A stretch of 61,130 bases of DNA from Solirubrobacter phytolaccae (GTDB lineage Bacteria > Actinomycetota > Thermoleophilia > Solirubrobacterales > Solirubrobacteraceae), in NCBI RefSeq assembly GCF_027587195.1, contig NZ_JAPDDP010000045.1, positions 1-61,130 of the forward strand. The letters run 5' to 3'. The translations under genes and the position numbers were made by a program. The notes below the pieces were generated by a model, which did no database searches, was not told the origin of the DNA, and worked only from the letters and a program-made list of their open reading frames with translations. Positions 3,108 to 47,562 of the stretch are shown here, piece after piece (position 1 is the stretch's first letter; every line of letters begins with the position of its first letter).

Positions 3108-4592
3108 GTGAGCGAACAAGTGGCAACGAGCGAGAGGCTGCCAGCAGGGCTGGAGCTGCGGACCGTCGGTCGACCGACGACTGCCGCGCGTCGTTCGAGC
3201 AATGCACGGACGCTCGCGCTGGTCGGCATCGACGCCGTCGCGATGCTCCTGGCCGTCCTCGGCGCGCATGCCTGGAGCACGCAGCCGCTGCGTGACGGGA
3301 TCGCCGCCGTCGTCGTGCTCGCCACCATGGCCGCGTTCGCGACCGCCGGTTGCTACCGGCCCCGCGCGACGCTGCCCTCCCGTGAGGAGCGCCGGACGCT
3401 GCTCGTGGCACCCGCGCTGATCGTCATGTTCGCCGCCGCCTTCGAGCTCGCGACCACCCACCCGGGTGCGGGCGACGCCGGCGTGCGCCTGTGGCTGCTG
3501 ATGGCGACGCTCGTCGGCACCGGCCGGCTCGGCGTCGCCGGAGCCGAGGCGCTCGTGCGCCGGACGTCCACCCCGACGGGCCGCGCGACGCTCATCGTCG
3601 GCGCCGGCCACGTCGGCCAGACGCTCGCCCAGCGGCTGGTCGCCGAGCCGCAGTACGGCCTGCAGCCGATCGGCTTCCTCGACAAGGAGCCGCTCACCGG
3701 CGACGACGAGACGCTGCTGGACCTGCCGGTGCTCGGCGCGTCCTGGCACCTGGAAGAGGTGATCGCCGAGCACGACGTGCAGCACGTGATCGTCGCCTTC
3801 TCGACCGCCCCGCCGTCCGTCGTGCTGGACATCGTGCGTCGCTGCTGGCGCCTGGGCGTCGGTGTGATGGTCGTGCCGCGCCTGTTCGAGGTCGAGGGCC
3901 GCCGCGCGCGCGTCGAGCACCTCGGCGCCCTTCCGGTCGTCGCGTTGAACCCGTCGGACCCGCGCTCGTGGCAGTTCACGATCAAGTACGCGATCGACCG
4001 CATCATCGCCTCGTTCGTGCTGCTGGCGCTCTCGCCCGTCCTGGCCGTCCTGGCCGTCGGCACCAAGCTCAGCTCGCCGGGCCCGATCTTCTTCCGCCAG
4101 CGCCGCGTCGGCCTGGACGGGCACGCGTTCGACATGCTCAAGTTCCGCACGATGTCCGGTTCCCCGGACTCCCGGGGCGAGAACGACGCCGCCTGGGCGA
4201 TGGCCACGCTCGGCCTGGCCGAGGGCGGCACCGAGGCTGCGCCCGAGGACCGGCGCACGCGCTTCGGCACGTTCCTGCGTCGCACCTCGATGGACGAGCT
4301 GCCCCAGCTGTGGAACGTCGTGCGCGGCGACATGTCGATCATCGGGCCGCGCCCGGAGCGCTCGCACTACGTCGAGCAGTTCCAGGACGCCATCTATCGC
4401 TACCCTGACCGCCACCGCGTCAAGTCGGGGCTGACCGGGTGGGCACAGGTGAACGGGCTCCGGGGAGAGACCTCATTGCAAGACCGGATCGAGTGGGACA
4501 ATTTCTATATCGAGAATTGGAGTCCCCTCCTCGACCTGAAGATCGTCTTGAAGACGATCCCGGCCTTGCTCTTCGCCCGTGGCGACCGCTGA
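3108..4592 (+). CDS. Polyprenyl-phosphate sugar-1-phosphate transferase (exopolysaccharide priming enzyme)
   Basis: The protein (494 aa) initiates glycan synthesis by moving a sugar-1-phosphate from a nucleotide sugar to undecaprenyl phosphate. About four N-terminal membrane helices (residues 35-140) are followed by a Rossmann-like region with TLIVGAGHVGQTLAQ near residue 160. The C-terminal bacterial sugar transferase domain (from about residue 290) carries the re-entrant helix and signature pieces KYAIDRIIASF, FFRQRRVG, MLKFRTM, DELPQLWNVVRGDMSIIGPRP and SGLTGWAQVNG. This is the long WbaP/WcaJ-like layout. GTG at 3108 has GGAGG only one base away; a second in-frame GTG at 3120 has better spacing and may be the true start. 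It overlaps the next gene by 14 nt. Confidence 0.92.
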   Translation: MSEQVATSERLPAGLELRTVGRPTTAARRSSNARTLALVGIDAVAMLLAVLGAHAWSTQPLRDGIAAVVVLATMAAFATAGCYRPRATLPSREERRTLLVAPALIVMFAAAFELATTHPGAGDAGVRLWLLMATLVGTGRLGVAGAEALVRRTSTPTGRATLIVGAGHVGQTLAQRLVAEPQYGLQPIGFLDKEPLTGDDETLLDLPVLGASWHLEEVIAEHDVQHVIVAFSTAPPSVVLDIVRRCWRLGVGVMVVPRLFEVEGRRARVEHLGALPVVALNPSDPRSWQFTIKYAIDRIIASFVLLALSPVLAVLAVGTKLSSPGPIFFRQRRVGLDGHAFDMLKFRTMSGSPDSRGENDAAWAMATLGLAEGGTEAAPEDRRTRFGTFLRRTSMDELPQLWNVVRGDMSIIGPRPERSHYVEQFQDAIYRYPDRHRVKSGLTGWAQVNGLRGETSLQDRIEWDNFYIENWSPLLDLKIVLKTIPALLFARGDR

Positions 4593-6012
4593 CACCCTGA
4601 CCTCCTCCGGCCGCCGTACGGCGGCCGACGACATCCTCGGAATCGTGTGGCGCCGTCGCTGGACGGCGCTGACCGCGTTCGTGGCCGTGCTGGCCTCCGT
4701 GGCCGCGATCACGGCGACGCTGTCACCCGCGTACGAGGCGACGGGCTACATGCTCGTGACGCCGAGCCGGCCGGTGTCCTCGGACTTCGAGCAGACGCAG
4801 ATCTCCTCGGCGCTGCTGACCACCTTCGTGCAGCTGCTGCAGACGCAGAACCTCGCGGACGAGGTCGAGCGTCGCGTCCGCGGCCGGGCAGGCATGCCCG
4901 CTGACCCCAAGAACGCCTTGACCGTGGAGGGCGTGACGGACTCCCAGCTGCTCCGGGTGACGACCGAGGCCGAGACGCCCGAGGCGGCGCAGCTGCTCGC
5001 CAACACGTACACGCAGGTCTTCCAGGAGCGCACGCGGCAGCTCGCGTCCTCCGAGGCCTCGACGGGTAAGGCGAGCGTCGCCGAGCCCGCGACGCTGCCC
5101 TCGACCCCGGTCCGTCCGCGCCCCAAGCTCTACCTCGCGGCCGGCGCCCTGCTCGCCGCGCTGGCGGCGATCGGCGCCGCGCTCGCCGCGCACCGCCTGG
5201 ACCGCCGCCTCGAGATCACCGACTCCATGACCGACGTGCTCGGCCTCCCGATCATCGGCCGGATCCCGCAGGGCTCCACGGCCGACGTGGAGCAGCTGCT
5301 GCAGGGCGAGCGCCTCGAGACGCGCGACGCCCGCGCGGCCGCCGAGGGCTTCCGGCTCGTGCTCGCCAACCTCACCTTCGCGAACGTGGGCAAGCGCCCG
5401 CGCTCGGTGGCCATCGTGTCCTCGGACGAGCAGGAGGGCAAGTCGACCGTCGCGCTCAGCGTCGGCCGCGCCGCCGGCGAGCTCGACCTGCCGACGCTGC
5501 TCGTGGAGGCCGACCTGCGCCGCCCGAGCCTGGCCAGCAAGAGCGGCGCCTGGGTGAACTCCCCCCGGGGCTTCTCGAGCATCCTCGTCAACGGCTCCTC
5601 GATGGGCGAGGCCGTGTGGCCGATCGCCGACTCGAGCATGGACCTGCTGCCGGCCGGTCCGCTGCCGCCGAACCCGGCGGCGCTGCTCGGGTCCGAGGCG
5701 CTGAGCGACTTCGACCACGAGGCCCGCGCGCGCTACGAGCTCATCCTGTACGACACGCCGCCGCTCTCCGTGGCCGCCGACGCGTCGCTGATCGCGTCCG
5801 TCGTCGAGGGTGTCGTGCTCGTCGTGGACGCCCGCAGGACGCAGCGCCGGGTGGCCGAGCAGGCCGTCGACCAGTTGCGACGCGCCCAGGCCACGATCTT
5901 CGGCGTGGTGGTCAACCGCGTGGACCCCGGCCCCTTCACTTCTGGCTATTACGCCGAAGGGCCGCCGCAGAAGGCGCGCGACGAGCGCGACCGACGCACC
6001 GTCGAAAAGTAA
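4579..6012 (+). CDS. Wzc/CapAB-like chain-length determinant fused to a BY-kinase-type ATPase
   Basis: The protein (477 aa) combines a Wzz domain with a cytoplasmic bacterial tyrosine-kinase fold and is expected to control polymer length and export. Membrane helices lie at about residues 29-48 and 184-204, flanking the extracytoplasmic Wzz part with a Pro-rich segment (STPVRPRP) just before the second helix. The kinase domain shows Walker A (SSDEQEGKST, 281-290), Walker A' (LLVEADLRRP, 307-316) and Walker B (LILYDTPP, 388-395). The C-terminal tail has only one YY pair (457-458), not the usual tyrosine cluster, so autophosphorylation may be limited. The start is GTG, overlapping the priming transferase, so the two are probably translationally coupled. 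Its likely phosphatase partner is the PHP protein at 18546. Confidence 0.9.
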   Translation: MATADTLTSSGRRTAADDILGIVWRRRWTALTAFVAVLASVAAITATLSPAYEATGYMLVTPSRPVSSDFEQTQISSALLTTFVQLLQTQNLADEVERRVRGRAGMPADPKNALTVEGVTDSQLLRVTTEAETPEAAQLLANTYTQVFQERTRQLASSEASTGKASVAEPATLPSTPVRPRPKLYLAAGALLAALAAIGAALAAHRLDRRLEITDSMTDVLGLPIIGRIPQGSTADVEQLLQGERLETRDARAAAEGFRLVLANLTFANVGKRPRSVAIVSSDEQEGKSTVALSVGRAAGELDLPTLLVEADLRRPSLASKSGAWVNSPRGFSSILVNGSSMGEAVWPIADSSMDLLPAGPLPPNPAALLGSEALSDFDHEARARYELILYDTPPLSVAADASLIASVVEGVVLVVDARRTQRRVAEQAVDQLRRAQATIFGVVVNRVDPGPFTSGYYAEGPPQKARDERDRRTVEK

Positions 6013-6025
6013 TTTCGGCGAACAT

Positions 6026-6062
6026 TCTGGACGCTCATCAAATGTTTGAGCTTGTGTCCAGA
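6026..6062 (+). terminator. Stem-loop after the wzc-like gene, possible terminator
   Basis: TCTGGAC (6026-6032) pairs with GTCCAGA (6056-6062). Inside it GCTCA (6033-6037) pairs with TGAGC (6047-6051), leaving a four-base bulge. It lies 14 nt after the stop of the upstream gene and before the riboswitch. No T-run follows, so termination efficiency is uncertain. A second small inverted repeat, CCTGT-cgata-ACAGG at 6069-6083, could be an operator or part of the promoter for the riboswitch transcript. Confidence 0.4.
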
Positions 6063-6104
6063 GGGCATCCTGTCGATAACAGGTAGCGTCAGCCATCTTC
6101 CCGC

Positions 6105-6182
6105 CTGCGAAAGGGCAAACCCGTCGTGAGGCGGGGACGCAAAGCCACGGGACTCAACTGAGTCAGCCGAGCTGCCGAACAG
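6105..6182 (+). promoter_or_regulatory. Cyclic-di-GMP-I riboswitch (GEMM-I aptamer)
   Basis: The conserved GEMM-I core is visible. AGGGCAAAC (6112-6120) precedes a six-pair stem closed by a GTGA tetraloop (GNRA type, about 6120-6135). Then comes the hallmark GGGACGCAAAGCC (6134-6146), followed by ACGGG, a GACTC-aact-GAGTC hairpin (6151-6164) and AGCCGAGCTGCCG (6165-6177). These elements match the family in order and spacing. The aptamer sits directly upstream of the secreted glycosidase at 6223. A downstream TGCGT...ACGCA hairpin (about 6189-6204) ends just before the ribosome site GGGAGGT, suggesting control of translation, although the on/off sense cannot be read from the sequence. Confidence 0.93.
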
Positions 6183-6222
6183 GACCACTGCGTGGGCGGA
6201 CGCACATCGGGAGGTCATCACC

Positions 6223-7683
6223 TTGCTTCGCCCGCGGGTCAGCGCATATCTTGCTGCGTTCATTGCTGTGCTCGGTGCCTGGTCGATGATCCCGTCGTCC
6301 GCCGCGGCCGCCACCAAGCTGGCCGGTGTGCAGGCCCATCTGCTGTGGGCCAACGTCGACACCGCTGAGATGAAGCGCCAGCTCGATCTCGTCAAGTCCT
6401 CGGGCTCGACGATCACCCGCGTCGACGTCGGCTGGTCCTCGCTACAGGAGACCGGCCCGGACTCGTTCAGCAGCTACCACCTCGGCCGCCTCGACGCGCT
6501 CGTGAACGCGGCCGAAGCGCGTGGGATCAAGCTGCTGCTGACCTTCACGTGGACGCCGTGCTGGGCGTCCAGCGCGCCCGAGTCCCTCAAGCAGGGTTGC
6601 GCGGGCGAGTGGTGGTCGCGCGGTGTGGACCGCTACGTGCCGAAGGACCCCGCCGCGTACGCCAGCGCCCTGGGCAAGGTCGCCGCCCGCTACAAGGGCC
6701 GGGTCAAGGCGTGGGAGATCTGGAACGAGCCCAACCACGAGGCCTATTTCAAGGCGCCCGATCAGGCCGCGGCCTACGCCGCGCTGGTCAAGGCGGCCTA
6801 CCCCGCCGTCAAGGCGGCCGACCCGAACGCGACGGTCGTCGCCGGCTCGCTGTCCGCGTCCGACCATGCGTTCACCACGCGGCTGTACCAGCTCGGCATC
6901 AAGGGCTCGTTCGACGCCTTCTCCATCCACCCCTACAGCGACGACGTCTCGCCGCTGGACCCGCGCATCGACCAGGACCCGAAGTACTCGTTCATCCGCG
7001 GCGTGCCGGCGGTGCGTGACGTGATGGTGGCCAACGGCGACGGCGCGAAGCCGATGTGGCTGACCGAAGCCGGCTACAGCACCTCACCGACGCGCTCGAC
7101 CCACCGCTACCTCAACGGCGTCTCCGAGGCCACGCAGGCCGAGTTCGTCAAGTTGCAGGTGCAGCAGGTCGCCAAGTGGTCCTACGTGGACGCGACGATC
7201 TGGTTCAACCTCAAGGACACGAGCAACGACGTCAACGACCTCTACGCGAACTGTGGCCTGAGGAGGTGGGATGGGTCGGCCAAGCCTGCTTGGGCGGCGT
7301 TTCAAGACAGCATTGCGATCCTCACGCATGGCGAAGAGCAGCCGGGTCCAGGGCCGCAGCTCCCGGAAGGTCCGCGGGAACCGCTGACGCCGGCGCCGCC
7401 CGCGCCGCAGACGCCGGCCCCGGTGGACACCGCGCCGGTGGTCCCGGTCACGCCCGTCACACCCGTCAGCCCGGTCGCGCCCATCACCCCGGTCACGCCC
7501 GCCCCGCCCGCCACGCCGACGAAGCCGTCCATCACGAAGCGCCCGCCCGCGAAGACGACGAAGCGGCCGACCAAGAAGAAGACGGTGTCCGCGAAGACCT
7601 CGCGCGCCACCAAGAAGGCCAAGGCCCGGGCGAAGGCGCGCGTGGCCGCCAAGCGCAAGGCCGTGGCCAGGCGCGCCCGCTGA
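6223..7683 (+). CDS. Secreted glycoside hydrolase (GH39/GH5-like TIM barrel) with basic tail, under c-di-GMP riboswitch
   Basis: A TTG start at 6223 with ribosome site GGGAGGT fits well and gives a signal peptide (residues 1-30, ending SSAAAA). The catalytic barrel has the clan GH-A acid/base motif WEIWNEPN (Glu169) and a probable nucleophile in MWLTEAGYS (Glu282), as in GH39/GH5 beta-glycosidases. It is followed by a Pro-rich linker of repeated PVTPV units (about 375-440) and a Lys/Arg/Ala-rich tail of about 45 residues that may bind anionic polysaccharide or the cell surface. Role: probably trims or releases the polymer made by this locus. The exact GH family and substrate are not determined. 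Length is 486 aa. Confidence 0.88.
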   Translation: MLRPRVSAYLAAFIAVLGAWSMIPSSAAAATKLAGVQAHLLWANVDTAEMKRQLDLVKSSGSTITRVDVGWSSLQETGPDSFSSYHLGRLDALVNAAEARGIKLLLTFTWTPCWASSAPESLKQGCAGEWWSRGVDRYVPKDPAAYASALGKVAARYKGRVKAWEIWNEPNHEAYFKAPDQAAAYAALVKAAYPAVKAADPNATVVAGSLSASDHAFTTRLYQLGIKGSFDAFSIHPYSDDVSPLDPRIDQDPKYSFIRGVPAVRDVMVANGDGAKPMWLTEAGYSTSPTRSTHRYLNGVSEATQAEFVKLQVQQVAKWSYVDATIWFNLKDTSNDVNDLYANCGLRRWDGSAKPAWAAFQDSIAILTHGEEQPGPGPQLPEGPREPLTPAPPAPQTPAPVDTAPVVPVTPVTPVSPVAPITPVTPAPPATPTKPSITKRPPAKTTKRPTKKKTVSAKTSRATKKAKARAKARVAAKRKAVARRAR

Positions 7684-7708
7684 CAGCGCGCCGCCTACCA
7701 TCGTCGGC

Positions 7709-9076
7709 GTGACCGTCGGCTCGCGCGTCCTGCTCCTGGGTGGCATCGCCGCCGCCTGCATGGCGGCGGTCGTCCAGGTCATGGTGATGGCACAGCTCGG
7801 CGGGCCGGCCGGGTTCGGCCTGCCGATCGCGATCGTCGTCGTGATCGTGGTCGTCCGTCAGCCCCTGCTCGGCTTGCAGCTCGCGCTCCTGGCCGTGCCG
7901 CTCGAGTACTTCTCGTTCAGGGTCGGCGGCCTCGTCGGGTTCAGCGCCACGGAGTTGCTGCTGCTGCTCACCGCCGGCGCCACGCTGCTCGAGTGGGCGG
8001 TGCTCGGCCGCGTGCCGCCGGTGCCGCCGGCGCTGCGCGCGCTGGCGCTCATCTGCCTCGTGATCGCCCTCGGGCTCACGGTCGCGCGCGACACCGAGGC
8101 CGTGACGAAGGTCCTGCTCATGTGGTCCACGTTCACGGTCGTCGGCGTGCAACTCGCCAACGCGCCGTTCAGCGTCGTGCAGCGCACGATGGTCTGCATG
8201 GCGCTGGCGGGCGGGCTCGTCTCGTTGCTCGCCATCGCCACGAGCGGGACGCAGACGCTCGTCGCGGGCGGCGCCGCCGTCACGGGCCGCGCGCAGGGGA
8301 GCTTCCCCCAGCCGAACACGATGGGCTTCTTCTTGCTGATGACGCTGCCGATCGCGATGGTGCTGGCGACGCGGGGCTCGGTGTGGTTCCGCGCCACGAT
8401 GGCCGTCGTGGCCACGCTGAGCGTGGTGGCGCTGGTGCTCTCGCTGTCGCGTACGAGCCTGCTGGGCGCCGGGCTGGCCTTCCTCGTGCTGCTGCTGTCG
8501 CCGCCGTTCCGTCGCCTCGCGTTCGTGGCGCTCGCGGTGCTGCTCGTGTCCGCGTTCGCGAACGCGCGGGCGCTGTCCCAATCGCACCAGGTCGAGGTGG
8601 TGACCTCGCGGCTCGGCACGCTGGGCCAGGGCGGCAGCGCCGTCCGCAACGACCCGCGGTTCGAGATCTACAGCGCGGTGCCCGGCGTCTTCGCCGATCA
8701 TCCCTTGCTCGGGGTCGGCGCACACAACTTCCCGCTGGTCTCGCGGGAAGTCGGGCTGAACGAGGGCGGCGAGCCGTACGACCACGCCCACAACGTCGTG
8801 TTGACGTTCGCGGTGGAGCTCGGGACGGCCGGCTTGGTCGCGCTGCTCTGGCTGCTCGTGGCCGTCGGCCGCATGGTCGTGCAGGCGGCTCGCACCCGCG
8901 GCGATCCGGTCACGGGCGCGCTCGGGCTCGCGCTCACCGCGTCGATGGTGGGCAGCGTGATGACGAGCCTCGGCGACTACCCGCCGCGCAACAACGTGAT
9001 TGCGGCGACGTTCATCGCGCAGGTCGCGATGCTCGCCGCCCTCGCGCGCGCTCAGGCGGCGGCGCGCTCGGCGTAG
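7709..9076 (+). CDS. Wzy/WaaL-like polysaccharide polymerase or ligase
   Basis: The protein is a 455-residue integral membrane protein with about eleven hydrophobic helices. A periplasmic loop with the Wzy_C pattern (VPGVFADHPLLGVGAHNF, then YDHAHNVVLTFAVELG) lies near residues 325-375, typical of O-antigen ligase/polymerase proteins. It starts at GTG 7709, 25 nt after the glycosidase stop, probably in the same transcript. It lacks the TPR extension of the paralogue at 827. Its last 25 nt overlap the convergent glycosyltransferase gene. It is the better candidate for the Wzy polymerase because it shares the transcript side of the priming enzyme and the Wzc-like protein; this is inference. Confidence 0.85.
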   Translation: MTVGSRVLLLGGIAAACMAAVVQVMVMAQLGGPAGFGLPIAIVVVIVVVRQPLLGLQLALLAVPLEYFSFRVGGLVGFSATELLLLLTAGATLLEWAVLGRVPPVPPALRALALICLVIALGLTVARDTEAVTKVLLMWSTFTVVGVQLANAPFSVVQRTMVCMALAGGLVSLLAIATSGTQTLVAGGAAVTGRAQGSFPQPNTMGFFLLMTLPIAMVLATRGSVWFRATMAVVATLSVVALVLSLSRTSLLGAGLAFLVLLLSPPFRRLAFVALAVLLVSAFANARALSQSHQVEVVTSRLGTLGQGGSAVRNDPRFEIYSAVPGVFADHPLLGVGAHNFPLVSREVGLNEGGEPYDHAHNVVLTFAVELGTAGLVALLWLLVAVGRMVVQAARTRGDPVTGALGLALTASMVGSVMTSLGDYPPRNNVIAATFIAQVAMLAALARAQAAARSA

Positions 9077-21368: not shown

Positions 21369-22856
21369 ATGCCGAGCACGTTCCGGGGGCCGCTGGCCGC
21401 TGCCCTCTTCGCCATCTTCACGCTCTGCTGCACCGCCTCGGCTGACGCGGCAGCGCCGCGCATCGTCCGTGGTACGGCGGACGCCACGGTGCGTCCCTCG
21501 TGGGTGCCCGGCGCGTGGGTGCGCCAGCACGCCTACGGCCTCGACCCCGCCGAGCTCGCCGCCCATCCCGAGTGGCAGCTCAAGGACGCCTCGAACACAC
21601 CGCTGTACATCGGCACGCGCGCCGCGGCCGACTTCGGCAACGCCGCGTTCCGCAGCTGGTGGATCGCCAAGGCCCAGGCCGCCACGAGCGGCGCGCGCGG
21701 CCTGTACGTCGACGACGCCTTCATGGAGCGCCGCGCCACGAACCTCAGCGGCACGTCGCGCACGCCGATCGACCCGCGCACCGGCGCCGCGATGACCGAG
21801 GCCAACTGGCAGAAGTACATGGCGGACTTCCTCGTCGCCGTGCGCGCCGCGCTGCCGAGCGCCGAGATCGTGCACGACGTCCTCTGGTACAAGGGCGACT
21901 CCGGCACGGACGTGCTGCGCGCGATCCAGGCCGCGAACTTCCTCTCCGTCGACGGCGGCTTCAACGGCGCGCTCGTCACCTACGGCGGCGGCACCTACGG
22001 CTACCAGACGCTCGCGGGGTTCATCGAGCGCGAGCAGGCCCGCGGCGGCGGCGTCATCCTCGACTTCCCGACCACGGCCGCGGCCGCGCGCATGTACGGG
22101 CTCGCGAGCTACCTGCTCGTCGGCAACGGCATCTCCGCGATCGCCAACGACGCGTCCACCACGCCGCTGTGGGCGGGCTACACCGTGGACGTGGGCACGC
22201 CGAACACCGGCCGCTACCAGGTCGCCACGGGCACGTGGCGCCGCGACTTCACGCGCGGCATCGTGCTCGTCAACGAGCCCTACCGCGCCACGCGCACGAT
22301 CACCGTCCCCGACGGCTATCGGGACCTTGACGGCGTGCCGCGCACGTCGGTCACGCTCGCCGGCGGCCAGGGCGCGGTGCTCGTGCCGATCCCCGTGCCG
22401 GTCTCCACCCCCACCCCGACGCCGACCCCCGTCGCGCCGACCGAGACCGGCGTGGGCGTGTCCACCGTCTCGGTCCCACCCGTCGCGACCGCCCCGCCGT
22501 CCGCGCCCACCAAGATCACGACCGTCTCCACGGGCGGCAACGGCGCGCGCATCGCCCGCGCCGGCGGCACCGCGGGTGCGAAGGCGCCCGGCTCGACCCG
22601 CGTCTCCGTCCGCGGCTCGCGCACGAAGCTCGTGGGCAGCGTCAAGGGCGCCGTGGCGGGCTACGTGCGCGTGACCATCGAGCGCAAGCGTGGCGCCAAG
22701 TGGGCGATCGTGCGGCGCGTGAAGGTCGCGGTGAAGCGCACGGGGCGCTTCACCAAGGACATTCCGACGCTGCCGAGCGGCAGCTACCGCGTGAGCGGCT
22801 ACTTCGAGGGGACCGGCACGTCGAAGCCGGCCCGCTCGGGCTACTCCACCTTCTGA
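21369..22856 (+). CDS. Secreted putative glycosidase (GHL15-like) with Pro/Thr linker and C-terminal Ig-like domain
   Basis: The protein (495 aa) has a signal peptide (residues 1-28, ending SADAAA). A TIM-barrel-like domain resembling hypothetical glycosyl hydrolase family 15 follows, with GLYVDDAFMERR, LWYKGDSG, FLSVDGGFNG and ILDFPTT. A Pro/Thr-rich linker (PTPTPTPV, near 345) leads to a small beta-rich C-terminal domain (VRVTIERKRGAKW). It probably cleaves or modifies extracellular polysaccharide as the second hydrolase of the locus. The start is ATG 21369 without a clear ribosome site. It overlaps the convergent stress-protein gene by 16 nt. The family call is moderate and the substrate unknown. 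Confidence 0.78.
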   Translation: MPSTFRGPLAAALFAIFTLCCTASADAAAPRIVRGTADATVRPSWVPGAWVRQHAYGLDPAELAAHPEWQLKDASNTPLYIGTRAAADFGNAAFRSWWIAKAQAATSGARGLYVDDAFMERRATNLSGTSRTPIDPRTGAAMTEANWQKYMADFLVAVRAALPSAEIVHDVLWYKGDSGTDVLRAIQAANFLSVDGGFNGALVTYGGGTYGYQTLAGFIEREQARGGGVILDFPTTAAAARMYGLASYLLVGNGISAIANDASTTPLWAGYTVDVGTPNTGRYQVATGTWRRDFTRGIVLVNEPYRATRTITVPDGYRDLDGVPRTSVTLAGGQGAVLVPIPVPVSTPTPTPTPVAPTETGVGVSTVSVPPVATAPPSAPTKITTVSTGGNGARIARAGGTAGAKAPGSTRVSVRGSRTKLVGSVKGAVAGYVRVTIERKRGAKWAIVRRVKVAVKRTGRFTKDIPTLPSGSYRVSGYFEGTGTSKPARSGYSTF

Positions 22857-32452: not shown

Positions 32453-32526
32453 GGGCGATTAGCTCAGTTGGTTAGAGCGCACGCTTCACACGCGTGAGGT
32501 CACTGGTTCGAGTCCAGTATCGCCCA
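32453..32526 (+). tRNA. tRNA-Val (anticodon CAC)
   Basis: The 74-nt gene folds completely. The acceptor stem is GGGCGAT with ATCGCCC and the discriminator A; the D arm is GCTC/GAGC. The anticodon stem CACGC/GCGTG carries loop TTCACAC, giving anticodon CAC, and the T stem is ACTGG/CCAGT with loop TTCGAGT. CCA is not encoded. Confidence 0.95.
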
Positions 32527-32545
32527 CTGCTTCCTCCTTCTCTGC

Positions 32546-32617
32546 GGGCGCGTAGCTCAGTGGGAGAGCGCTCGCTTCACACGCGAGAGGTCGCAGGTTC
32601 GAAACCCGCCGCGCCCA
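32546..32617 (+). tRNA. Second tRNA-Val (anticodon CAC) with a T-stem mismatch
   Basis: The 72-nt gene has acceptor stem GGGCGCG/CGCGCCC, discriminator A, D arm GCTC/GAGC, anticodon stem CTCGC/GCGAG and loop TTCACAC (anticodon CAC). The T stem is GCAGG/CCCGC, which contains one A-C mismatch. CCA is not encoded. It lies 19 nt after the first tRNA and its 3' end directly abuts the stop codon of the convergent cyclase gene. It has the same anticodon as its neighbour but a different body. Confidence 0.92.
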
Positions 32618-45383: not shown

Positions 45384-47562
45384 CGAGGTGCGCGGCCGCG
45401 GCCGCCTCGGGCAGCGGCCGTGAGAACAGGTAGCCCTGCCCGCGGTCGCAGCCGAGCGCGCGCACCGCGGCGAGCTGCGCCTCGGTCTCGATGCCCTCGG
45501 CGACGGTCGAGAGGCCGAGGCCGTTCGCGAGGCCCGCGATCGCGCCCAGCACCTGGCCGCGGTTGTCCGCGGCGACCCCGGAGACGAACGCGCGATCGAT
45601 CTTCAGGCCTTCGAGCGGCAGCCGCTCGAGGTAGCCGAGCGCGGAGAAGCCCGTGCCGAAGTCGTCGAGCGCGATCCGCACGCCGAGCGCGTTCAGCGCC
45701 TGCAGCCGCTCCGCGACCATCGCCGTGTCGGAGAGGAAGACGCCCTCGGTCACCTCGAGTGAGAGGCACCGCGGGCCGACCGCGGCGACTTCCAGCGCCG
45801 AGCGCACCACGTCCACGATCCACGCGTTCTCGAGCTGCAGCGGCGACACGTTCACGTTCATCGCCAGCTCGTGATCGCCCGACGCGTCCTGGAACCGGCG
45901 GAGCGCTCCGGTCGCCTCGCGGATGACCCACGCGCCCAGGCGGTGGATGATCCCGGTCGACTCGGCGAGGCCGATGAACATGTCCGGGGCGAGCAGCCCG
46001 CGCGTCGGGTGCTGCCAGCGCACGAGCGCCTCGAAGCCGGTGACCGCCTCGGTCTTGAGGTCGACGATCGGCTGGAAGTGCAGCACCAGCTCGTCGTTCT
46101 CGAGCGCGCGGTGCAGCTCGGCGCGCAGGGTGAGCCGCTCGCTCGCCTCCTCGCCCATGCCGGACTCGAACAGCGTCCACGTCCCCTTGCCCGCGCCCTT
46201 GGCGGAGTACATCGCGAGGTCGGCGTCCCGCAGTAGGTCGTCCGCGTCGAGCTGGGCGCCGACGACGTAGCGCACGCCGACGCTCGCGCGGCAGTGGAAG
46301 GCGCCGACGCTGAGCTCGAACGGCGCGTCGAACGCCGCGAGCACGCGCTCGGCCAGCTCGGCGGCCTCGTCGATGCTGTCGACGTCCTCGGCGAAGATCA
46401 CGAACTCGTCGCCGCCGAGCCGGGCGGCGGTGTCGGCGGAGCGGATCGCGCCCTCCAGGCGGCGGGCCACGGCCTGCAGCAGCAGGTCGCCCTCGCGGTG
46501 CCCGAGGCCGTCGTTGACCGACTTGAAGTCGTCGAGGTCGATCAGCATCACGGCCGCGCCCGCCGTCTCGTTGCGCCGGGACCGCGCCGCCGCGTGGCCG
46601 ATCCGCTCGCGCAGGAGCGCGCGGTTCGCCAGCCCGGTGAGCGCGTCGTGGAACGCGAGCTCGGTGAGCTCGCCCTCCAGCTCGCGCCGGTCCGTCACGT
46701 CGCGCACGTTGAAGACGATCGCGCCGACCGCGGACTCGTCGAGCAGGTTCACGACCGTGCCGTCCAGCAGCCGCTTGGTCCCGTCGGTGTGCAGCACCGA
46801 GAACTCGACCGGGAGCTGTCCGCCGGTGTCGGCGAGCGGCGCGAGCTGGCGCGTGAGCCGGCCCGCCTCGTCCTCGGGGATCAGCCCGCACAGCTCGGCG
46901 CCCTCCGCGTCCTCCGGGGTGACGCCGATCACGCGCTCGAGCGACGGGCTCGCGTACTGGATGACCCCGCGCTCGTCGATCAGCAGCGTCACGTCGGAGG
47001 CGTGCTGCACGAGCGCGCGGAACCGGCGTGAGCTCTTCGCGCGGGCCTGCAGCGTCGCGGCGACGGCGAGCACGAGCGTCAGCCCGATCAGCACGGCGAG
47101 CAGCCGCTGCGTGCCGCCGCGCGCGTCGACCGCGTCGGCGACCGTCGCTCGGAACGCCAGGTTGCTGGAGTCGGAGAAGGCCTTGAAGTCGCGTTCGACG
47201 GCAGCGATCTGCGCGTCGGCCTCCGCCACGGGGCCGGTCAGGTCGACCGCGCGCACCCGCTGTTCCAGCCGCGTCATGGACGCCGGGTCGGGGGCGTGCC
47301 GCTCGAGGTTCTTGAGCTGCTGGAGCGCGAGCCCGCGCCGCAGCTCGGCCTCCTCCACGGTCCCGTCGAGCGCGAGCCCGTTGACGGCGCGCTGGAAGAG
47401 CAGCAGGTCGCGCTGGCCGTTCGCGGTCTGGGAGGCCACGATCCGCGTGGCGGCGAGCTCGTCCGTCGTCGAGCCGACGTTCAGCAGCAGGTGGCCGAGC
47501 ACGGCGAGCGCGGCCAGCGTCGTCGCGATCACCACGGCCAGCAGCAGCGACGGGCGCTTCAC
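45337..47562 (-). CDS. Membrane GGDEF-EAL protein with PAS domain (c-di-GMP metabolism)
   Basis: The protein (741 aa) starts at GTG 47562, overlapping the preceding lipoprotein gene. Order: membrane helix (5-28), extracytoplasmic helical domain (30-150), helix (152-172), PAS domain (180-295), GGDEF (300-465), EAL (475-730). The cyclase active motif is RLGGDEF at 381-387, preceded by an RSAD inhibitory (I) site at 374-377. The phosphodiesterase motif GFEALVRW (509-516) keeps the Glu, and DDFGTG, KIDRAF and EGIET also look intact, so both activities are possible. A c-di-GMP riboswitch lies in the same window at 6105. The extracytoplasmic ligand is unknown, but the neighbouring SUOX-like lipoprotein may deliver it. 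Confidence 0.93.
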   Translation of the reverse strand: MKRPSLLLAVVIATTLAALAVLGHLLLNVGSTTDELAATRIVASQTANGQRDLLLFQRAVNGLALDGTVEEAELRRGLALQQLKNLERHAPDPASMTRLEQRVRAVDLTGPVAEADAQIAAVERDFKAFSDSSNLAFRATVADAVDARGGTQRLLAVLIGLTLVLAVAATLQARAKSSRRFRALVQHASDVTLLIDERGVIQYASPSLERVIGVTPEDAEGAELCGLIPEDEAGRLTRQLAPLADTGGQLPVEFSVLHTDGTKRLLDGTVVNLLDESAVGAIVFNVRDVTDRRELEGELTELAFHDALTGLANRALLRERIGHAAARSRRNETAGAAVMLIDLDDFKSVNDGLGHREGDLLLQAVARRLEGAIRSADTAARLGGDEFVIFAEDVDSIDEAAELAERVLAAFDAPFELSVGAFHCRASVGVRYVVGAQLDADDLLRDADLAMYSAKGAGKGTWTLFESGMGEEASERLTLRAELHRALENDELVLHFQPIVDLKTEAVTGFEALVRWQHPTRGLLAPDMFIGLAESTGIIHRLGAWVIREATGALRRFQDASGDHELAMNVNVSPLQLENAWIVDVVRSALEVAAVGPRCLSLEVTEGVFLSDTAMVAERLQALNALGVRIALDDFGTGFSALGYLERLPLEGLKIDRAFVSGVAADNRGQVLGAIAGLANGLGLSTVAEGIETEAQLAAVRALGCDRGQGYLFSRPLPEAAAAAHLATSRSSGRPSASASR

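Follow-up and report, generated by a model that had tools for sequence, protein, structure and literature searches.

The window analysed here, a stretch of 61,130 nucleotides from Solirubrobacter phytolaccae, holds a c-di-GMP-I riboswitch directly in front of a predicted polysaccharide hydrolase gene within an exopolysaccharide (EPS) locus. This arrangement raises the question of what c-di-GMP would achieve by acting on such an enzyme, and of how transcription of the leader that carries the riboswitch is itself controlled.

The identity of the RNA element was established with covariance models. A whole-genome search gave an RF01051 (c-di-GMP-I) match at 6104-6179 (+) that scores 67.8 bits (cut-off 35), and cmscan of the window gave an RF03167 (c-di-GMP-I-GGC) match at 6106-6180 (+) that scores 65.8 bits (cut-off 59; E 2.5e-13). 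A sequence-only reading of this DNA had proposed a full GEMM-I core with a GNRA tetraloop and the GGGACGCAAAGCC element. The P2 loop, GUGA, is indeed of the GNRA type, GGGACGCAAAGCC is present in the aptamer, and scores over both cut-offs confirm, at the level of homology, a genuine c-di-GMP-I riboswitch. Covariance models and aligned aptamers delimit the aptamer to 6104-6183 on the forward strand, including a P1 extension, recognized by eye, of CCUG (6104-6107) with CAGG (6180-6183). In Vc2 numbering, the canonical bases that we take from the Vc2 structures to be the ligand contacts, G20 (6114), A47 (6141) and C92 (6175), are all present in the alignment. Because A occupies the A47 position, and because the CGCAAA stretch and the final CC are invariant in an alignment of 24 aptamers drawn from this genome and others, the pocket is predicted to be that of an ordinary c-di-GMP-I riboswitch, and to bind c-di-GMP.

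The two models belong to one clan, and the GGC label, presumably named for the three contact bases, prevailed on E-value. We rejected a GGC variant with a ligand other than c-di-GMP as very improbable: its one support is this automatic Rfam label, whereas at the A47 position the window and all 24 aligned aptamers carry A against the G of the RF03167 consensus (cmscan alignment), and RF01051 outscores RF03167 by 2 bits. The element shares with the Vc2 type of RF01051 its fold, GNRA loop, conserved core and assumed G20, A47 and C92 contacts, but differs from it, by eye, in that its P3 loop is short and its P1 has an AA bulge; many of its relatives, moreover, carry a WhiG-type promoter directly 5' of the aptamer.

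The leader is flanked by EPS genes, as the sequence-only reading had held. On the forward strand, a WcaJ-like EPS polyprenyl glycosylphosphotransferase gene (3108-4592; TIGR03025 over its cut-off) and a Wzz/BY-kinase gene (4579-6012; by profile matches, a polysaccharide co-polymerase with tyrosine autokinase) lie upstream of it. The glycoside hydrolase (GH) gene, with a TTG start (6223-7683), follows, and 25 nt after its stop comes a Wzy_C gene (7709-9076; O-antigen ligase/polymerase-like by Pfam). The frame at 6223-7683 matches Pfam Cellulase (GH5) with 54.8 bits and Glyco_hydro_39 with 32.0 bits, and the nearest solved structure by sequence is PslG (E 1.1e-19), which upholds the earlier placement in clan GH-A. 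The motifs WEIWNEPN and WLTEAGYS align with their PslG counterparts through NEP and TE, which we assume to hold the catalytic glutamates. With acid/base and nucleophile motifs both aligned, the product is predicted to be a PslG-like GH39/GH5 hydrolase. Its secretion, also proposed earlier, is consistent with a signal-like N-terminus, the signal peptide having been recognized by eye. A homologue with 76% identity is found in Solirubrobacter sp. CPCC 204708. We also observed that the C-terminal tail (7360-7683) is Pro-rich and then Lys/Arg-rich, and is kept with altered sequence in the orthologous loci L044 and L055; this basic tail may perhaps bind acidic polymer or the cell wall.

PslG is a hydrolase encoded inside an EPS cluster, and is proposed to help release or clear polymer (PMC9075953). 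The window enzyme and PslG of the Psl operon of Pseudomonas aeruginosa have in common a homologous catalytic domain, aligned catalytic motifs and a gene in an EPS cluster, whereas the RNA switch, the signal-like N-terminus and the basic tail distinguish the window enzyme. In P. aeruginosa, c-di-GMP acts on psl via protein regulators.

The sequence-only reading had found it notable that the riboswitch controls a hydrolase and not the synthase genes. The gene order does not support this, and we rejected hydrolase-only control on that ground. Because Wzy_C begins 25 nt past the GH stop on the same strand, and because three further Solirubrobacter loci of the GH group have an ORF of 456-457 aa at this 25-nt spacing too (Pfam having been run on the window copy only), GH and Wzy_C are probably on one transcript, which would place a polymerase/ligase under the same riboswitch. 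Elsewhere in the window, two adjacent tRNA genes (32453-32617) share the apparent anticodon loop UUCACAC.

The window genome (7.74 Mb) has five c-di-GMP-I riboswitch sites. Across seven Solirubrobacter genomes, where we examined 32 of 35 sites (the aptamer stretches being identical in L044/L049, L046/L051 and other pairs), the targets are the GH (four of the seven genomes), CAP-domain proteins (two groups), subtilisin-like proteases and type IV pilins, and, in two genomes, further secreted proteins, one of them Pfam GHL15; one member of each non-GH group was checked by Pfam. In the Solirubrobacteraceae, 89 of 146 genomes carry the riboswitch. BLAST clustering of the first downstream ORFs (94 ORFs for 103 sites, nine of which, including five pilin-type Solirubrobacter leaders, were missed by the ORF callers) yielded as the largest clusters a mix of GHL15 and helical secreted proteins (19), pilins (17) and CAP proteins (16); the locus L209, described below, entered with the gene after rsiG. 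GHL15 was confirmed in L168, L175, L074 and L183. The same locus of the window also encodes a GHL15 hydrolase (21369-22856), which is without a riboswitch here, whereas riboswitches do precede GHL15 genes of other genera in the family.

Riboswitch control of a PslG-like hydrolase is recurrent and not a singleton, because a custom covariance model detected aptamers directly 5' of the GH gene in four of 80 other GH-homologue loci, L080, L084, L086 and L104. L080 is from Solirubrobacter; the other three lie outside the genus and have different neighbours, the GH standing again between Wzz/kinase and Wzy_C genes in L084, and within a different shared context, with ftsX, in L086 and L104. In L082, an aptamer is present at a distance from the GH gene. 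An Rfam run on 12 of the 80 loci agrees for L080, L082, L084 and L086, and L104 is a match of the custom model only.

We then considered the DNA upstream of the aptamers. Flagellar and WhiG sigma factors share the consensus TAAA/GCCGATAA, according to PMC8325347, and we counted matches to TAAA-N14-16-GCCGATAA within 75 nt 5' of the aptamer. In the family set (102 of 103 leaders, one with less than 75 nt upstream having been dropped), 27 leaders match with at most two mismatches, against a mean of 0.2 and a maximum of 2 in 100 shuffles and 0.2% of the 604 windows taken from other parts of the loci. At three mismatches or fewer the count is 50 of 102 (shuffle mean 2.5, maximum 6; 1.3% elsewhere). 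Solirubrobacter accounts for 18 of 32 leaders at the stricter and 30 of 32 at the looser level, many of these leaders being orthologs, and the rest of the family for 9 and 20 of 70. An additional family set of 13 leaders (of 15), which partly overlaps the 102 and was not pooled, gave 1 and 3.

The enrichment extends to the phylum. Among 90 leaders, one per genome, from 28 families other than that of Solirubrobacter (the top of the E-value list and no random sample), 43 have the promoter at two mismatches or fewer (shuffle mean 0.75, maximum 3; none of 88 windows 3' of the aptamer) and 56 at three or fewer (shuffle mean 6.6, maximum 13; 1 of 88 downstream); 14 of the 28 families include at least one leader at the stricter level. 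None of 30 cobalamin riboswitches of the family has it at three mismatches or fewer, three of these 30 matches covering only part of the model, so that their upstream windows are inexact. The pattern is not universal: at this level, 52 of 102 family leaders lack it (50 of the 70 from outside Solirubrobacter), as do 34 of 90 phylum leaders. When no motif was preset, GCCGAT, CCGATA, CGTCCA and TAAAGC were within the 15 most enriched 6-mers of the family leaders, and CTCAAG and CCGATA within the 15 of 30 phylum leaders. For the other GH leaders, TCAA-N15-GCCGATAA precedes riboswitch and GH in L086, and the best matches have four mismatches in L104 and five in L084. The window genome as a whole contains 65 matches to TAAA-N15-GCCGATAA (spacing 15 only) at two mismatches or fewer, compared with 28 for the reversed pattern, and these include three of its five riboswitch leaders. 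Separately, sigma28-type matches were seen about 500-600 nt 5' of GGDEF domains, on the same strand, at C110:17158, C124:14315, C82:93969 and C140:22393 of genome G000. Promoters of this kind lie ahead of DGC/PDE genes in Rubrobacter (PMC8325347).

Which sigma factor would read these promoters has to be asked at the level of the genome, given that FliA has the same promoter specificity and consensus as WhiG. The window genome encodes two sigma factors over the FliA/WhiG cut-off. The first is FliA-like and adjoins FlaG and other flagellar-looking genes, the latter named by eye. The second has its best match in chain 6pfj_A (E 4.2e-89), whose entry says no more than RNA polymerase sigma factor and which we take to be Streptomyces venezuelae WhiG; the best FliA chain, 6pmi, follows with E 9.5e-54, and 7lq4, a shorter chain named WhiG, with 2.8e-35. 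The genome further encodes an RsiG that bears the c-di-GMP motif E(X)3S(X)2R(X)3[QH](X)3D, a motif present in 30 of 30 RsiG loci inspected. Both components of the RsiG-WhiG switch, a WhiG-like sigma and a motif-bearing RsiG, are thus encoded in this genome, which also has 61 GGDEF matches. In the window itself, a GGDEF domain lies in a 930-aa frame at 46186-46656 (-). RsiG is an anti-sigma factor that holds WhiG together with c-di-GMP, and the RsiG-WhiG pair is present in Thermoleophilia; structures and binding, together with promoter mapping in Rubrobacter, indicate that RsiG-WhiG promoters are active at low c-di-GMP, and WhiG is reported to control pili in Rubrobacter (PMC8325347).

It is conceivable, and in our view rather unlikely, that the leaders belong to the regulon of the flagellar sigma FliA and not to that of WhiG, RsiG being irrelevant. 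The identical consensus would allow this, as would the FliA-like gene beside FlaG and the flagellar-looking genes, on whose contig the only promoter match with no mismatch is located. The promoter was also found, at two mismatches or fewer, in two of five leaders from genomes without an RsiG hit, compared with 41 of 85 from genomes with RsiG, and this near-equal frequency counts against a strict tie between promoter and RsiG. On the other hand, RsiG accompanies the riboswitch in 144 of 155 phylum genomes, compared with 104 of 241 genomes without the riboswitch (odds ratio 17, Fisher p 3e-26, shared ancestry uncorrected). This comparison covers 396 phylum genomes, with matches counted at E<=0.001 and at most 10 riboswitch and 15 RsiG candidates scored per genome, and absences may be misses. 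The reported control of pili by WhiG in Rubrobacter likewise argues against FliA, pilins being among the commonest riboswitch targets here. We infer that WhiG rather than FliA reads the promoter. The system resembles that of PMC8325347 in its WhiG-like sigma, single-motif RsiG, promoter consensus and pilins among the targets; the main text of that paper mentions no riboswitch, whereas here such promoters lead riboswitch transcripts.

One genome (G018) adds a further combination. At L209 (C17:33500-36700), a second, divergent rsiG starts 32 nt past a c-di-GMP-I aptamer. Its product matches Pfam PF22802 with 42.9 bits against a cut-off of 27, and the leader has a promoter-like TCAA-N15-GCCGACAC with three mismatches. 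An RNA sensor of c-di-GMP here stands ahead of a protein sensor of c-di-GMP, and an MreB-like gene (by eye) comes after rsiG.

In the window leader, a candidate sigma28/WhiG-type -10 box, GTCGATAA, is located at 6072-6079 (+), and agrees with the consensus in 7 of 8 bases, a single mismatch equalled by 25 of 2000 shuffles of the same stretch. The -35 TAAA is absent, its position being held by a poor TGTG (6053-6056), and the match overall has 4 mismatches of 12, a level reached on average by 15 of 102 leaders in shuffled sets. Because the -35 TAAA is missing, the match is weak and we do not file the window promoter as a certain sigma28/WhiG member. In the orthologs L044, L049 and L055, the -10 box is the perfect GCCGATAA, 8 of 8 (L044 and L049 being identical here), which arose by chance in 1 of 2000 shuffles for L044 and 3 of 2000 for L055. 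The block 6021-6103 is near-invariant among the window, L044 and L055. A perfect 7-bp inverted repeat, TCTGGAC (6026-6032) and GTCCAGA (6056-6062), spans 6026-6062 and is a candidate regulator site or a terminator of the upstream operon. Since this conserved repeat sits at the place of the -35, an activator may replace the -35 at this promoter. We also noted GTCCA, often as CGTCCA or GTCCAG, in 56 of 102 family leaders, 48-110 nt (once 18 nt) 5' of the aptamer; the shuffle mean is 12.4 and the maximum 22, and 13 of 102 have it downstream. GTCCA is likely to be the site for a regulator of the same regulon.

The locus could instead represent an ordinary c-di-GMP-I riboswitch that serves a pair of EPS genes, transcribed from another promoter that is activated via the GTCCAG site, with the -10-like octamer incidental. 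The total of four mismatches, the lack of a -35 and the overlap of the conserved repeat with the -35 position would all suit this proposal. We nevertheless consider it doubtful, given the perfect GCCGATAA of L044/L049 and L055 (1 and 3 of 2000 shuffles) and an octamer-aptamer distance in the orthologs that is about that in other Solirubrobacter groups. A sigma70-like TTGTGT-17-GATAAC, noticed by eye, was superseded by the sigma28 reading, and a rule-based scan of 5950-7800 found neither a sigma70 promoter nor an intrinsic terminator. The sequence-only reading of this leader was right about the riboswitch but overlooked the -10 box (6072-6079) and the pattern that extends from it across genus and phylum.

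Downstream of the aptamer, sequence and folding place the putative expression platform at 6184-6222 (+). The ribosome site and TTG start reported earlier are found there, with the Shine-Dalgarno GGGAGG at 6209-6214 ahead of TTG at 6223. The hairpin said to follow the aptamer also exists but does not amount to a clear switch, folding having given no consistent mutually exclusive pair, and global folds of the leaders and bound/free comparisons likewise failed to differ consistently in the window group. When the protease-group leaders were read by hand as OFF switches, the energies did not bear this out. Terminators are more readable: they occur in 12 of 30 phylum leaders, and pair significantly with the P1 5' strand in two, L264 and L267 (p 0.00 and 0.01 in 200 shuffles), and less clearly in L258 (p 0.09). 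In L264 and L267, this strand is bound by the terminator loop together with its 3' arm, as would suit an OFF switch. L264, L267 and L258 are AT-rich actinobacterial leaders with strong terminators and P1 pairings of 11, 9 and 8 nt, and would make good OFF-switch models.

Both switching signs occur in the c-di-GMP-I class. We lean towards a ligand-OFF riboswitch at the ribosome site in the window, a sign that we regard as somewhat probable. An ON switch is a less likely alternative, in which c-di-GMP raises GH and Wzy and the polymer is processed while the matrix is built, like PslG during Psl synthesis; combined with a WhiG promoter, this would confine expression to intermediate c-di-GMP. The GH gene adjoins those of Wzy and Wzz, the window folding gives no sign in a class that has both, and PslG aids Psl production (PMC9075953). 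However, the two relatives with readable terminators resemble OFF switches, and the RsiG-WhiG gate would oppose an ON switch.

The explanation that we consider best, and to which we would give about an even chance, is that a canonical c-di-GMP-I riboswitch and a WhiG-type promoter jointly gate the GH-Wzy pair by c-di-GMP. Transcription would begin at the sigma28/WhiG-type promoter, some 30 nt 5' of the aptamer. At high c-di-GMP, RsiG would hold WhiG and the leader would hardly be made, while the riboswitch, most likely ligand-OFF at the ribosome site, would shut the remaining transcripts. When c-di-GMP falls, both locks would open and the GH could trim or release polymer, leading to matrix release; Wzy, made alongside, may reset chain growth by supplying a polymerase for new chains. 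That c-di-GMP sets the trimming or release of the polymer, as first proposed from the sequence, is plausible. A ligand-OFF riboswitch would work in the same direction as the promoter gate and make a double lock; an ON riboswitch would turn the pair into a band-pass. On the scale of the Actinomycetota, we hold with similar, evenly balanced confidence that the c-di-GMP-I riboswitch acts as a second lock after the RsiG-WhiG promoter gate. Were both locks OFF, the threshold would be sharp; with opposite signs, a band-pass would result. The genes so governed would be those for pili, matrix hydrolases and proteases, joined in one genome by that for a second RsiG.

Singly, the riboswitch, the hydrolase, WhiG and RsiG are already known. 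A parallel for their combination is Vibrio cholerae gbpA/Vc1 (PMC4545359), where c-di-GMP affects transcription of a gene whose leader also contains a riboswitch. Unlike the present leaders, gbpA is a single case. To our knowledge, its promoter effect is not via RsiG-WhiG. In Bdellovibrio, the FliA attack-phase regulon (TTAAG-N16-CCGATA) is a global one of the sigma28 kind to which proteases and surface proteins belong, and a c-di-GMP riboswitch RNA, merRNA, occurs in the same phase; Table 2 of PMC3627812 does not mark merRNA as FliA-driven, and it leads no conserved gene. Our searches of open-licence papers, judged by their listings and by passages of PMC8325347, PMC13232838, PMC3627812, PMC4545359, PMC9075953, PMC7266159 and PMC12452182, gave no report of WhiG/FliA promoters before actinobacterial c-di-GMP riboswitches. 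The word 'riboswitch' is absent from the main texts of the RsiG papers PMC8325347 and PMC13232838, and PMC6916266, which deals with type IV pili in monoderms, contains a single mention of a c-di-GMP riboswitch.

If the proposed mechanism is true, one second messenger would control a single gene twice in succession, first through a protein and then through an RNA, repeatedly across the phylum. WhiG is a sporulation sigma factor in Streptomyces, and such a role would help to explain its retention in unicellular relatives. The leaders would also yield a candidate list of c-di-GMP target genes in actinobacteria, and for the window locus, matrix hydrolysis would be a direct output of c-di-GMP.
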